This document shows positions 48,299 to 53,790 of a stretch of DNA of 64,000 nucleotides, one piece after another. Each line of letters opens with the position of its first letter. Position 1 is the first letter of the stretch. The translations under genes were made by a program, and so were the position numbers. The DNA comes from Agromyces subbeticus DSM 16689. Its GTDB lineage: Bacteria; Actinomycetota; Actinomycetes; Actinomycetales; Microbacteriaceae. Under the pieces are notes generated by a model, which made no database searches, was not told the DNA's origin, and saw nothing but the letters and a program-made list of their open reading frames with translations. The stretch covers positions 682,001 through 746,000 of the forward strand of contig NZ_ATXG01000001.1 of assembly GCF_000421565.1 (NCBI RefSeq). The letters are read 5' to 3'.

Positions 48299-50065
48299 CT
48301 ACTCGACGAGCTTGCCCGCGGTCGACACCTCGCGCATGAGGGTCGCGATCTCGGCCGGGATGGGCGGGATCTGTTCGCGGGTCACGCCCGCCGACGGCGA
48401 CCAGACGAGGTTCACCTGCAGCGCGGCATCCGTCTCGGGGTAGTCGCTGCGGTTGTGGCAGCCGCGGGTCTCGCGTCGCTCGAGCGCCGCCTCGAGCGTG
48501 GCGCGCGCGGCGAGCGATGCCGACTTGAGGTCGAAGGCGTGCGCGAGATCCTGGTAGCCGGCGATGTCGGGATGCACGCCGACATCCGTCATGCGCGCCT
48601 CGATGGCGTCGAGTTCCGCGAGCCCGGCGGTGAGACCGGCCTCGTCGCGCACGACGCCGGCGTGCTCGGTCATGGTGTCGCGGATGGCACGCTGCAGGGC
48701 GCGCACGTTTTCAGTGCCATCGGATGCCAGCAGTGTCGCGATCTCGTCGCGCGCGGTCTGCACGGCAGACGCCGAGCGCTGCTGCGCGGTGAGCGAGCGT
48801 GAGTACGACGCCGCGGCCTGACCCACGATGCGCCCGAAGACGAGCAGTTCGATGAGCGAGTTGCCGCCCAGCCGGTTGGCGCCATGCAGACCACTGGATG
48901 CCTCGCCGATGGCGTAGAGCCCCGGGACATCGGTGCCGTGGTCGTCGGGCCGAACCCACACGCCGCCCATCGAGTAGTGCGCGGTGGGCGCGATCTCTAT
49001 CGGCTGCTTCGTGATGTCGAGCATCTGCAGCTCGAGCATGGTCTGGTAGACGCGGGGCAGGCGCTGCATGATCGTCTCGCGGGGCAGGTGCGAGACATCC
49101 AGCCAGACGCCGCCGTTGGGGGTGCCGCGCCCTTCTTTGATCTCGGTGTAGCAGGCGAGGGCCACCCGGTCGCGGGTCGAGAGCTCGAGCCGCTCGGGAT
49201 CGTACTTGTGCATGAAGCGCTCGCCGAGGCCGTTGGTGAGGATGCCGCCTTCGCCGCGGGCCGCCTCGCTGATGAGGGTGCCGGCCGCGTTCTCGGGCTC
49301 GATGATGCCCGACGGGTGGAACTGCACGAGCTCGGGGTCGCGCACCCGGCCGCCCGCCTCGACGGCGAGGCGCCACGAGTCGCCCGTGTTTTCGTCGCGA
49401 CGCGATGACGTGCGCCGCCAGATGCGGTTGTGGCCGCCGGCTGCCAGAATCACGGCATCGGCGTGGATGAGGTAGCGCGTGCCGTCGTCGACGTCGAAGC
49501 CGTACGCGCCGAAGACCGCGCCGTCGTCGTTCACGAGGATCCGCGTGATGTAGACCGTGTCGAGAATGGGCACGTTCAGCTGTGCTGCGCGGTTGATGAG
49601 CGTGCGCTGGATCTCGAGCCCCGTGTAGTCGCCGGCGAACGCCGTGCGGCGGTAGGTGTGGGCGCCGAAGAAGCGCTGCGAGATCCGGCCGTCGTCTTCG
49701 CGGGCGAACGGCATGCCGTAGCGCTCGAGGTCGTCGATGCCGCGGGCAGCGCCCTTCGTCACGATCTCGACCGTGTGCGGGTTCGCGAGCAGGTAGCTCT
49801 CTTTGAGCGTGTCGGCGGCGTGCTGCTGCCAGCTGTCGTCGGCGTCCATCGTGGCGAGGGCGGCGTTGATGCCGCCGGCGGCGAGGGAGGTGTGGGCGTC
49901 GGACTTCGGGCGCTTGCCCAGGGCGAGCACGTCGACGCCCGCCTCGGCGAGCTCGATGGCGGCGCGCAGGCCCGAGCCGCCGGTGCCGATGACGAGCACG
50001 GTGGTAGAGATCTGGCGCTCGGGGGTGGTGCCGGGGGTGCTTGGCGCGGTGCTTCTGCTGCTCAT
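48299..50065 (-). CDS. FAD-dependent fumarate reductase/aspartate oxidase-type flavoprotein
   Basis: A 588-residue flavoprotein: dinucleotide-binding GTGGSGLRAA (27-36), HTSLAAGGINAAL, QFHPSGI, GEGGILTNGLGERFM, APTAHYSMGGVWV, IGEASSGLHGANRLGGNSL and RSDYPETD are blocks of the succinate dehydrogenase/fumarate reductase/L-aspartate oxidase group, with the substrate Arg and His in place. The usual iron-sulfur and membrane subunits are absent nearby, as are nadA/nadC, so it acts alone or with distant partners. Divergent from a LysR gene. Confidence 0.88.
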   Translation of the reverse strand: MSSRSTAPSTPGTTPERQISTTVLVIGTGGSGLRAAIELAEAGVDVLALGKRPKSDAHTSLAAGGINAALATMDADDSWQQHAADTLKESYLLANPHTVEIVTKGAARGIDDLERYGMPFAREDDGRISQRFFGAHTYRRTAFAGDYTGLEIQRTLINRAAQLNVPILDTVYITRILVNDDGAVFGAYGFDVDDGTRYLIHADAVILAAGGHNRIWRRTSSRRDENTGDSWRLAVEAGGRVRDPELVQFHPSGIIEPENAAGTLISEAARGEGGILTNGLGERFMHKYDPERLELSTRDRVALACYTEIKEGRGTPNGGVWLDVSHLPRETIMQRLPRVYQTMLELQMLDITKQPIEIAPTAHYSMGGVWVRPDDHGTDVPGLYAIGEASSGLHGANRLGGNSLIELLVFGRIVGQAAASYSRSLTAQQRSASAVQTARDEIATLLASDGTENVRALQRAIRDTMTEHAGVVRDEAGLTAGLAELDAIEARMTDVGVHPDIAGYQDLAHAFDLKSASLAARATLEAALERRETRGCHNRSDYPETDAALQVNLVWSPSAGVTREQIPPIPAEIATLMREVSTAGKLVE

Positions 50066-50141: not shown

Positions 50142-51080
50142 GTGAACCTCGAACAACTGCGCAGCTTCGTCGAGGTGGCCCGGTTCGGCAACTTCACCCG
50201 GGCGGCCGAAGAGCTCTACCTCGCCCAGCCCTCGCTGAGCCGCCAGATCGCCGCGCTCGAGCACGATCTCGGTGCCGAGCTGTTCCACCGCGCGCGCGGC
50301 GGCAGCACCCTGACCGTCGCGGGGGAGTCGCTGCTGCCGCTCGCCCGGCGCATGCTCGCCGACGCCGAATCGGTACGCCGCGAGCTCGCCGAGCTCGCAG
50401 GCCTGCAGCGCGGCCGGGTGCGCCTCGGCGCGACGCCGACGCTCTGCATCAGCCTCGTCGCCGAGGTGCTCAGCGCCTTCCACGCCGCGTATCCCGCGAT
50501 CGAACTGCACCTGTCTGAACAGGGTTCGCGCCGATTGCTCGACGAACTCGCCGGTGGCGAGCTCGATCTCGCCCTGATCACCACGTCGGATGCGACATCC
50601 GCTGACCGCTTCACCGTGACGCCGCTGCTCGTCGAAGAGCTCGTGGTCGTGTCGTCGGCCGGGGCGCCGCCCCTCACCACTCGCGCCACCATCGAACTCG
50701 CGGATGTCGCGGCGTTGCCGCAGATCGTCTTGAGTCCGAGTTACGACCTGCGGGCCACGACGGATGCCGCCTTCCGAGCCGCCGATCTCACGCCCGAGGT
50801 GCTGCTCGAGGGAGTGGAGATGGATGCCGCGCTGCGGTTCGTGGAACGCGGGCTCGGCGTCGCGATCGTGCCGGCGATGGTGCTCATCGATCGGCCGGGG
50901 TTGCGGTCGGTGCGGCTCGGCGCGCCCACACTCGACCGTACGATCAGCGTCGCCCGCCCTGCCGATGTCGCGCCGACTGCGGCCGTCGAGGTCATGGGGC
51001 AGACGATCACGGCGAGTGCGACGGCGTTCGCGGCACGCGCCGGGAAGACGATGCGCGTGGCCGGTGGGGGCGGGCGCTGA
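50142..51080 (+). CDS. LysR-family regulator
   Basis: A 312-residue LysR protein: N-terminal winged HTH (MNLEQLRSFVEVARFGNFTRAAEELYLAQPSLSRQIAALE) and a substrate-binding co-inducer domain from about residue 90. Divergent from the flavoprotein at 48299-50065, which it probably regulates in the usual LysR manner. Confidence 0.92.
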   Translation: MNLEQLRSFVEVARFGNFTRAAEELYLAQPSLSRQIAALEHDLGAELFHRARGGSTLTVAGESLLPLARRMLADAESVRRELAELAGLQRGRVRLGATPTLCISLVAEVLSAFHAAYPAIELHLSEQGSRRLLDELAGGELDLALITTSDATSADRFTVTPLLVEELVVVSSAGAPPLTTRATIELADVAALPQIVLSPSYDLRATTDAAFRAADLTPEVLLEGVEMDAALRFVERGLGVAIVPAMVLIDRPGLRSVRLGAPTLDRTISVARPADVAPTAAVEVMGQTITASATAFAARAGKTMRVAGGGGR

Positions 51081-51181: not shown

Positions 51182-51368
51182 TCGCTCTCGCGGAGCGTTT
51201 CGACGGCCTCCCGAGGCCGCGCACGGCCGGCGCTGGGCGCGCGTTGAGCGGACCCGAGTGGGGGCGGGCCGATACAGAGGGAGGGCGAGGGCGCTGTTGC
51301 CGTCAACCCGTTTCGCCCGAACCTCGCCCTCGCTACGCTGAGCGGGCAGGCAAGGGAGAGGAACGCGC

Positions 51369-51629
51369 ATGACGATCAACGATGACGACATCACCCTCGA
51401 GCCGGGTGCCGAGGGCGAAGGCATCGCCGACGGCGGCGCCAACCCGCAGGGACACGATGGCGGAGCCGACGGGTCCGCGTCCGAGGGTGGCGAGGGCACT
51501 GCCGACGGGGGAGCGAACCCCGGGGGCCACGACGGTGGAGCCGATGGTTCGGCGGCTGCGGGGGAGGGCACTGCCGATGGCGGCGCGAATCCCGGTGGCC
51601 ACGACGGCGGCGCCGACGGTTCGGCGTAG
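51369..51629 (+). CDS. Triple-repeat Gly/Asp-rich small protein, candidate precursor peptide
   Basis: An 86-residue protein: an acidic leader of about 16 residues (MTINDDDITLEPGAEG), then three 21-residue repeats at 17-37, 42-62 and 66-86, each reading EG(I/T) plus ADGGANP(Q/G)GHDGGADGSA. The protein ends exactly with the third repeat. There is no signal peptide, no hydrophobic part and no Cys. GGGAGAGG precedes ATG 51369, and the stop overlaps the next gene by one base. Multi-core layout beside an oxygenase suggests a ribosomally made, modified peptide; a metal (Ca)-binding acidic protein is the alternative. Confidence 0.75.
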   Translation: MTINDDDITLEPGAEGEGIADGGANPQGHDGGADGSASEGGEGTADGGANPGGHDGGADGSAAAGEGTADGGANPGGHDGGADGSA

Positions 51630-52870
51630 TGACGGGCTCGGAGCGCGGGTCGACCAATCGGCCCGCGCTTTCGCGCTGCATCCGCGTCTCGGCTGACGAG
51701 TTCGCCGAGCGGCACTGGGGCCGAGAGCCATTGCTCTCGCCGGCGAGCGAGCTCGACGGCGAGCACGGCTTCGACGACCTGTTCTCGGCGGGTGCCGTCG
51801 ATGAGCTCGTGACCCGCCGCGGCGTGCGCACCCCGTTCATCCGCATGGCGCACGAGGGCTCGGTGCTCGCGGCATCCGCCTACACCGGCTCGGGTGGTTT
51901 CGGCGCCGAGGTCGTCGACCAGGTCTCGAGCGACAAGGTGCTCGCCGAGTTCGCGGGCGGCGCGACCATCGTGCTGCAGGGGCCGCACCGGCTGTGGCCG
52001 CCGATCATCGATTTCACGCGCGAGCTCGTCGACGACCTCGGCCACCCCGCGCAGGTCAACGCCTACGTCACCCCGCCCTCGTCGCAGGGCTTCGACCCGC
52101 ACTACGACACCCACGACGTCTTCGTGCTGCAGATCTCGGGCGAGAAGTACTGGCGCATCCACGCGCCCGTGCACGTCGACCCGCTGCGCACGCAGCCGTG
52201 GGAGCAGCACCGGGCCGCCGTCGCCCGGGCGGCCACGCACGAACCCGTGATCGACGCGGTGCTGCGACCCGGGGAGGCGCTCTACCTGCCGCGCGGCTGG
52301 ATCCATTCGGCCACCGCGCTCGGCGCGACATCCGTGCACCTGACCGTCGGCCTGGCCGCCTTCACGCGCGCCGACCTCGTCGACGCGCTCCTCCGCCGGG
52401 TCGGCGAGAACCCCGCGCTGCGCACGTCGCTGCCGCTCGGTGTCGACCTGCGCGACCCCGCGGCGCTCGCGCCGATCGTCGAGCAGACGGTGCAGGCGCT
52501 CATCGAGACACTGCAGCAGACGGATGCCTCGCGGCCGGCCGCCGTGCTCAGTGCGCGCTTCGATGCTGACACCCGCGCCGAGCCCGTCGCCCCGCTCGCG
52601 ACGCTCGACGCGCTCGCGACGCTCGACGCATCGACGCGGGTGCGGTGGCGCGGCTCGCTGCCGGTGCGCATGACGACCGCCGACGACCGGGTGCGCATCG
52701 TCGGGCGCATGAAGACGCTGTCGCTGCCCGCCGAGGCCGAGCCGGCCGTGCGCCGGTTGGCGACGGGCGACCCCGTCACGGCCGGCGAGTTGCCCGGCCT
52801 CGACGCCGAGAGCGCGGTCGTCGTCGTGCGTCGGCTCGTGCGCGAGGGCTTCGTGGTGGCGCCCGCGTGA
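51629..52870 (+). CDS. JmjC/cupin-type Fe(II)/2-oxoglutarate oxygenase
   Basis: A 413-residue protein of the cupin_4/JmjC (RoxA/YcfD-like ribosomal oxygenase) group. Iron ligands are His158-x-Asp160 (DPHYDTHDVF) and His226 (PRGWIHSATAL); EKYWRIH and GEALYLPRGW are further family motifs. The C-terminal about 140 residues form a winged-helix-like domain as in RoxA. Relatives hydroxylate Arg or His side chains of ribosomal proteins. Start GTG 51629 overlaps the repeat peptide stop (TAGTG) and the end overlaps the next start (GTGA), implying that the peptide is its substrate. Confidence 0.85.
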   Translation: MTGSERGSTNRPALSRCIRVSADEFAERHWGREPLLSPASELDGEHGFDDLFSAGAVDELVTRRGVRTPFIRMAHEGSVLAASAYTGSGGFGAEVVDQVSSDKVLAEFAGGATIVLQGPHRLWPPIIDFTRELVDDLGHPAQVNAYVTPPSSQGFDPHYDTHDVFVLQISGEKYWRIHAPVHVDPLRTQPWEQHRAAVARAATHEPVIDAVLRPGEALYLPRGWIHSATALGATSVHLTVGLAAFTRADLVDALLRRVGENPALRTSLPLGVDLRDPAALAPIVEQTVQALIETLQQTDASRPAAVLSARFDADTRAEPVAPLATLDALATLDASTRVRWRGSLPVRMTTADDRVRIVGRMKTLSLPAEAEPAVRRLATGDPVTAGELPGLDAESAVVVVRRLVREGFVVAPA

Positions 52871-53790
52871 CCCTCGCCGTCGAGCACTGGGCGCCGTGCA
52901 GCGATCGCGCCCGGGAGCGCAACGATCCGCTGGCCGGCACCGGCCCGCGGGGCCTGCGCTGGTTCCTCATCGAGGTGCCGGGCAGCTGGGGGCAGAACGC
53001 GCTGCTCGACGCGCCGTTCGACCGCGAGCTCGGTCGCGCCCTCGTGCGGCGCATCGAGGGCGCGGGCATGCGGCCGCTCGCGATCCGGCGCACCGGCCGC
53101 AGGGTCGCTTCGGCCACGCAGCGGTGGGCGATCGTCGACTCGAGGCCAGGTTACGAGGGCGTGGTGTGGGGCGAGGCAGCGGATGCCGCGGGGCTGCTCA
53201 CCGTGCCGCTCGACGGGTCCACCGGCATCCCCTCGTCTCGGCCGGTCTATTGCATCTGCACGCACGCCCGGCACGACCAGTGCTGCGCCGTGCGCGGGCG
53301 TCGGGTGGTGACCGCGCTCGCCGGGGCGCGCCCCGACGAGACATGGGAGTGCTCGCACCTCGGCGGCGACCGGTTCGCCGGCACGATGGTGGTCTTCCCG
53401 CACGGGCTCTACTACGGGTACGCCGACGACGGTGACCCCGTGCGCATCGCCGACGCCTTCGACGCCGGGCGACTCGTGCCCGAGCGCTATCGGGGGCGCA
53501 GTTCGCTGACGCATCCGGTGCAGGCGGCCCAGCACTTCGCTCGCGAGGCGTTCGGCGATGACGGCATCGATGCCTTCGCCCCGATCGCCGAGGAGTCGAC
53601 CGAGACGGGGTGGCGGGTGCGCCTCGCCGGCGATGGCGACCGGGCCGGAGGCGGCGGCCGAGATGGCGGCGGCAGCATCGTCATCGAGGTCGACGAGACG
53701 CAGTCGGAGCCACTGCTGTCGACGTGCGCGGCCACTCGCTTCGTTCGCGTGCGGCAGTATGCGCTCCGTTCGATCGGCGCCGAGGGCTGA
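52867..53790 (+). CDS. Sucrase/ferredoxin-like Fe-S protein
   Basis: A 307-residue Suc_Fer-like protein: a thioredoxin-like [2Fe-2S] ferredoxin domain with Cys129, Cys131, Cys139/140 (YCICTHARHDQCCAVRG), Cys162-x-His164 (WECSHLGGDRFAGTMVVFPHGLYYG) and a Gly-rich linker before a short C-terminal beta domain. It may pass electrons to, or activate, the oxygenase upstream. Overlaps the previous gene by GTGA; last of the three-gene operon. Confidence 0.85.
   Translation: MTLAVEHWAPCSDRARERNDPLAGTGPRGLRWFLIEVPGSWGQNALLDAPFDRELGRALVRRIEGAGMRPLAIRRTGRRVASATQRWAIVDSRPGYEGVVWGEAADAAGLLTVPLDGSTGIPSSRPVYCICTHARHDQCCAVRGRRVVTALAGARPDETWECSHLGGDRFAGTMVVFPHGLYYGYADDGDPVRIADAFDAGRLVPERYRGRSSLTHPVQAAQHFAREAFGDDGIDAFAPIAEESTETGWRVRLAGDGDRAGGGGRDGGGSIVIEVDETQSEPLLSTCAATRFVRVRQYALRSIGAEG

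Follow-up and report, generated by a model that had tools for sequence, protein, structure and literature searches.

A gene for a small acidic repeat peptide, a gene for a JmjC_2-type oxygenase and, usually, a gene for a Suc_Fer-like protein form a cassette that points to an undescribed, RiPP-like kind of modified peptide. Initially seen as a single operon, this set of genes is present across the phylum. The repeats of the peptide are very probably the substrate of the oxygenase, a reading that we prefer because the peptide and the oxygenase are conserved as one unit, the peptide has a leader followed by a repeated core, and the enzyme carries a domain similar to the RREs of RiPP enzymes.

Organization of the cassette

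The cassette was analyzed in a 64,000-nucleotide stretch of the Agromyces subbeticus DSM 16689 genome (the window), where it comprises the following features.

51352..51363, + strand: likely Shine-Dalgarno-like stretch AAGGGAGAGGAA, 5' of the peptide gene
51369..51629, + strand: precursor-like peptide gene, stop codon included (86 aa; 12 Asp, 6 Glu, no Lys or Arg)
51369..51413, + strand: leader MTINDDDITLEPGAE (15 aa), with the conserved acidic-hydrophobic motif NDDDIT
51414..51479, + strand: repeat 1, GEGIADGGANPQGHDGGADGSA (22 aa)
51489..51554, + strand: repeat 2, GEGTADGGANPGGHDGGADGSA (22 aa)
51561..51626, + strand: repeat 3, GEGTADGGANPGGHDGGADGSA (22 aa); its end is the final residue of the peptide
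51629..52870, + strand: JmjC_2 (PF08007) 2OG/Fe(II) oxygenase (413 aa) with a full-length NO66/MINA53-like fold; its GTG start overlaps the TAG of the peptide gene (TAGTG)
52583..52867, + strand: winged helix at the C terminus of the oxygenase, similar to RREs by structural matches, probably leader-binding
52867..53790, + strand: Suc_Fer-like (PF06999) putative [2Fe-2S] protein, the accessory third gene; its GTG start overlaps the TGA of the oxygenase gene (GTGA)

Both overlapping junctions are located where the initial annotation had placed them. That annotation also described the peptide as a leader plus three nearly identical 21-aa units that end at the last residue; this layout holds, except that the unit is 21 to 22 aa long and repeat 1 differs from the others at two positions. 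The repeats are spaced by 25 and then 24 aa, and the array, with a TRF score of 251, is the top tandem repeat of the window (the runner-up scores 74) and far from chance. Between repeats 2 and 3, all differences are synonymous (9 of 18 synonymous sites, 0 of 48 nonsynonymous ones), and between species the peptide gene shows pS values of 0.39 to 0.63 and pN values of 0.01 to 0.12. Synonymous change in a near-constant protein indicates that the peptide is translated and is under strong purifying selection.

The peptide had no family match in searches of Pfam, NCBIfam, PHROG, or PADLOC. A defense system was rejected, as there was no PADLOC match, and so was a virus origin, since only the JmjC domain matches PHROGs (function unknown), with no match for the peptide or the Suc_Fer-like protein. 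Upstream, and seemingly without relation to the cassette, the window encodes a succinate dehydrogenase/fumarate reductase-like flavoprotein (48299-50065, - strand) adjoining a LysR regulator (50142-51080).

Linkage and phyletic distribution

Searches with the oxygenase as the query retrieved 80 close relatives, and the same peptide is encoded 5' of the oxygenase in all 78 that had upstream sequence. Homologs of the oxygenase were found in 58 of 396 genomes sampled from the phylum (E ≤ 1e-10) and in 58 of 297 genomes of the class (E ≤ 1e-50; about a fifth of the genomes, 39 of 115 genera), the phylum-wide presence counts being raw ones that ignore kinship between genomes; other classes of the phylum also carry the cassette. 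Under a fixed criterion, an acidic repeat ORF lies directly 5' of 83 of the 88 sampled homologs scoring at least 200 bits and of none of 11 distinct loci that score lower (leaving out one row, a fragment of the already counted L214), compared with a background of 179 of 3,450 other long ORFs. For two of the five homologs that failed this criterion (L158 and L177), visual inspection does reveal an acidic leader-repeat peptide. Thus, the outcome that the initial annotation had named as contrary to its proposal, oxygenases mostly without a repeat-peptide neighbor, is not what the genomes show.

Within the genus, the oxygenase, the repeats, and PF06999 are present in the identical 17 of 60 genomes, and none of the three is found in the other 43. 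The peptide and the oxygenase, usually together with the Suc_Fer-like protein, are gained and lost together. No conserved flanking genes were found even within the genus, so the link between peptide and oxygenase is more than synteny, and the all-or-none presence combined with unconserved flanks marks the cassette as an autonomous unit. A larger gene cluster was considered and rejected: there is no other conserved neighbor beside the cassette, and nothing that would encode a transporter, a protease, or self-protection is linked to it. The genes usual for RiPP leader removal and export, which are not obligatory, are likewise absent from the cluster.

Three further observations concern individual loci. 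A metagenome-assembled genome labeled Rhodococcus (L073), whose organism label in the tree is Cyanobacteriota, carries an actinobacterial cassette and is likely a case of contamination or mislabeling. In two related genomes (L145 and L213), the precursor position is occupied by a nonrepetitive acidic protein ending in DDPEL(S/A)GADL...EPGA; both belong to the clade with a degenerate leader described below. Single-copy matches to the pattern GHDG(G/A)ADG in other genomes do not lie beside a homolog of the oxygenase and were left uncounted.

The oxygenase

The oxygenase matches the JmjC_2 profile PF08007 (E = 1.5e-29) and displays the HxD...H triad and the 2OG-binding Lys of this family (the ROX group); it is the only JmjC_2 protein encoded in the source genome. 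Its iron ligands, His158, Asp160, and His226, which the initial annotation had listed as intact, are invariant among the homologs, as are the 2OG-site residue Lys173 and Tyr146, the counterpart of NO66 Tyr328. The structure model is confident (pLDDT 90, pTM 0.84) and matches NO66 with a Z score of 29.4 over 385 residues, followed by MINA53 (27.7), YxbC (20), and YcfD (about 19), in agreement with the sequence profiles (NO66, 3e-28; YcfD, 1.6e-8). The characterized enzymes closest by both profile and fold are therefore NO66 and MINA53, rather than RoxA/YcfD as first suggested. The latter, a uL16 arginyl hydroxylase, shares the superfamily and the domain order with the cassette enzyme but is a more remote match in both sequence (E about 1e-8) and fold (Z about 19), acts on ribosomal L16, and has no known peptide partner.

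NO66 (RIOX1) and MINA53 (RIOX2) have in common with the cassette oxygenase the full-length fold with the C-terminal winged helix, the iron ligands, the 2OG-site Lys, and the Tyr328 equivalent. However, the cassette enzyme has Val115 in place of NO66 Arg297 (a position assigned by alignment), has a repeat-peptide partner, and is patchily distributed. A further difference lies in the contacts with the substrate. NO66 grips its target His through Tyr328 and Ser421; the former is present as Tyr146, whereas the position of the latter is Gly241, and it is Gly in every peptide-linked homolog examined, including those with His-containing cores. The His pocket is thus incompletely retained, which argues against a simple transfer of histidyl specificity, with the limit that Gly241 takes away a single His contact only.

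When the winged helix was compared in isolation, the best structural matches were NO66 and MINA53, followed by PqqD (Z score of 7.0), TbiB1 (6.6), and the PbtF RRE (6.4), with ThcOx, MccB, McbB, and LynD/TruD-type RRE domains among the further matches at Z scores of 5 to 7. The resemblance of the modeled domain to the leader-binding RREs of RiPP enzymes is suggestive, although at this Z level it may possibly reflect merely a common arrangement, and the presence of the same domain in NO66 and MINA53, which are not known as RiPP enzymes, counts against the RRE interpretation. The oxygenase did not match the PF05402 profile. Among RiPP enzymes, a leader-binding RRE is frequent but not required. 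A 2025 survey independently described PF08007 JmjC domains to which RRE-like folds are fused, as well as JmjC homologs from bacteria in RiPP-like contexts (PMC12710340).

In one clade (L143 to L145, L160, L204 to L207, L209, L210, L213, and L215), most leaders have a degenerate DDDI motif, and the winged helix of the enzyme has likewise diverged in its last helix. Both changes probably go back to one and the same event, which makes the clade a natural experiment on leader recognition. A contingency comparison of leader motif and winged-helix completeness was dropped as statistical proof, since the motif is loose and, by eye, the pattern is essentially that of one clade. The same clade, two of whose loci encode a nonrepeat acidic protein, weakens the case for leader guidance.

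Peptide cores and the candidate target residue

Among 229 repeats of the close relatives, three Asp residues are present in all 229, Asn in 227, and His in 224, and the core of this lineage can be written ADGGANPxGHDGGADGSA. Outside the lineage, the leader motif persists, as L(S/T)DEDIET or DDDIT, while the repeats differ completely: the unit is replaced by EGPADGGATPGQHDGGADGSA, EGPADGGAEGTPGVQDGGADGGA, tandems of ADGG (such as ADGGADGG), DADGTDGDATD, or DGTDQGVPGGTYGPRDAS. Enzymes adjoining the ADGG-type cores form one supported tree group (98/97). The Asp fraction reaches up to 40%, and the distant cores lack Cys and aromatic residues; 81% of their Asp residues follow Ala, Thr, Gly, or Ser, and 90% precede Ala, Gly, Ser, or Thr. 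At one locus (L163), a divergent repeat, ADGTDQGVxGGTYGPRDAS, with Tyr and Arg, is found 5' of the same oxygenase. RiPP precursors have this architecture, in which a conserved leader is joined to a repeated core that changes, and the cassette combines a small precursor of this kind with an adjacent tailoring enzyme.

The initial annotation had pointed to one Asn, one His, and several Asp residues in each repeat. Among the 163 cores compared, all contain Asp (7 or more within the final 60 residues), whereas His is missing from 39, Asn from 59, and both from 33. Whole lineages are without His and Asn, so that neither is supported as the shared target, while Asp among small residues is universal. 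Asp is probably the residue modified, judging from the composition of the cores. It could also be that Asp-rich low complexity is itself the function of the peptide and that Asp is common for that reason.

An unlikely alternative is that the repeats are substrates with His (or Asn) as the target, as in NO66 and MINA53, and that the specificity has shifted in the distant relatives. The near constancy of His and Asn in the close repeats, the retained Tyr328 equivalent, and the fact that the closest solved enzymes are histidyl hydroxylases fit this proposal, but the three Asp residues in the same repeats are more constant still, related oxygenases adjoin cores devoid of both His and Asn, and the Ser421 equivalent is Gly even next to His-containing cores. 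The substrate of NO66 contains a stretch, NPVEHPFGGG, that NPxGHDGG resembles; this likeness was also considered and rejected, as the residue hydroxylated in that substrate is His216 of the NHQH motif.

It is rather improbable that the oxygenase, as a ROX enzyme similar to NO66 or YcfD, acts on a protein of the ribosome or on some other protein of the cell, with the acidic peptide acting as its regulator, inhibitor, or decoy. Such a role would suit the full-length ROX-type fold and the single JmjC_2 gene, and acidic repeats could serve as a competitive mimic. However, the oxygenase occurs in a minority of genomes (58/396 in the phylum, 58/297 in the class, and 17/60 in the genus) while ribosomal targets are universal, the pair persists though the core sequence turns over completely, and the multirepeat layout is typical of a multisite substrate. 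Slightly less probable still is an unmodified peptide that binds metals or other ions through its charge, the oxygenase and the Suc_Fer-like protein acting on another molecule of the pathway: the high Asp content, distant cores free of Cys and aromatic residues, the adjacent iron enzymes, and the absence of RiPP export genes agree with it, but the conserved leader and the RRE-like domain on the neighboring enzyme do not, nor does the upstream region, in which no IdeR or Zur box was found above the shuffled expectation, so that iron or zinc regulation was rejected.

The Suc_Fer-like protein

The third protein matches PF06999 with E = 4.6e-14 and 53.4 bits (cutoff, 34.9). Its gene lies directly 3' of the oxygenase in 148 of the 170 homologs that score at least 200 bits and have sufficient sequence, and is located elsewhere or missing in some genomes, which makes it an accessory component. 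The cassette proteins retain C11, C131, C139, C140, H164, C287, and a GGDRFA stretch. The ligand motif of the bis-histidinyl [2Fe-2S] thioredoxin-like ferredoxins Apd1 and Aim32 is CX8CXnHX3H (PMC8482512). The cassette proteins share its CX8C...H spacing (C131-X8-C140...H164) but differ in having the additional invariant Cys11, Cys139, and Cys287 and, instead of HX3H, H164-X3-D168, with Asp replacing the second His ligand in 37 of 38 homologs. Hence, of the Cys set initially described as intact, the cysteines of CX8C are indeed kept, whereas the second His of the motif is Asp. The sequence makes a [2Fe-2S] cluster with an altered ligand set likely. No solved structural relatives of this protein were found by sequence.

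Proposed function and relation to known systems

The genes, their linkage, the selection on the peptide, the folds, and the conserved leader with its variable core are observed directly, and from them we infer the chemistry of the cassette. The NDDDIT leader would dock on the enzyme's winged helix, which resembles an RRE, and the JmjC active site, supplied with Fe(II), O2, and 2-oxoglutarate, would then act on the repeats many times. The most probable change would be addition of OH to the C-beta of Asp within (A/T/S/H)-D-(G/A), the most economical proposal because Asp is the sole candidate in all cores and related enzymes perform C-beta hydroxylation. The Suc_Fer-like protein would most likely serve as a [2Fe-2S] reductant and so maintain the activity of the iron center, or else perform a second tailoring step. 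Taken as a whole, a leader-guided JmjC oxygenase that hydroxylates Asp many times per peptide, with the Suc_Fer-like protein as an accessory, is somewhat favored over the sum of other possibilities. The product would remain intracellular or exit by general routes. For peptides dense in beta-hydroxy-Asp, metal binding is a plausible function, though one that we regard as doubtful for this product.

RRE-guided RiPP systems resemble the cassette in that a leader and core peptide adjoins a tailoring oxygenase. In contrast to them, the cassette has the oxygenase as its only constant enzyme, an Asp-rich, Cys-free multirepeat core, a Suc_Fer partner, and no linked transporter or protease. The idea, put forward in the initial annotation, that the repeats are substrates has gained from the linkage, the leader-core layout, and the RRE-like domain, while an exported RiPP of the classical kind is not indicated. 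As for related chemistry, BipG, a JmjC enzyme of biphenomycin biosynthesis, hydroxylates Orn in a RiPP precursor (PMC12707348), and beta-hydroxylation of Asp in a RiPP is reported for SmaO, as cited in PMC13097080. The open literature that was searched contained no description of the cassette, which, with subscription papers outside its scope, is weak evidence of absence.

The broadest version of this proposal, to which we give slightly less than an even chance, is that of a phylum-wide, so far undescribed class of ribosomal peptides whose tandem repeats are hydroxylated at Asp by one leader-guided JmjC enzyme, with poly-beta-hydroxyaspartyl products that have a conserved role inside the cell, for example in handling metals. 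If the proposed function is correct, a lone JmjC oxygenase would define a RiPP-like class, and the cassette would offer a route, encoded in genes, to peptides rich in hydroxylated Asp. The ribosomal oxygenases, including human NO66 and MINA53, would moreover be connected through their winged helix with the leader-binding domains of RiPP enzymes. The cassette, present in 58 of 297 genomes of the class and also in further classes of the phylum, has apparently been overlooked so far.
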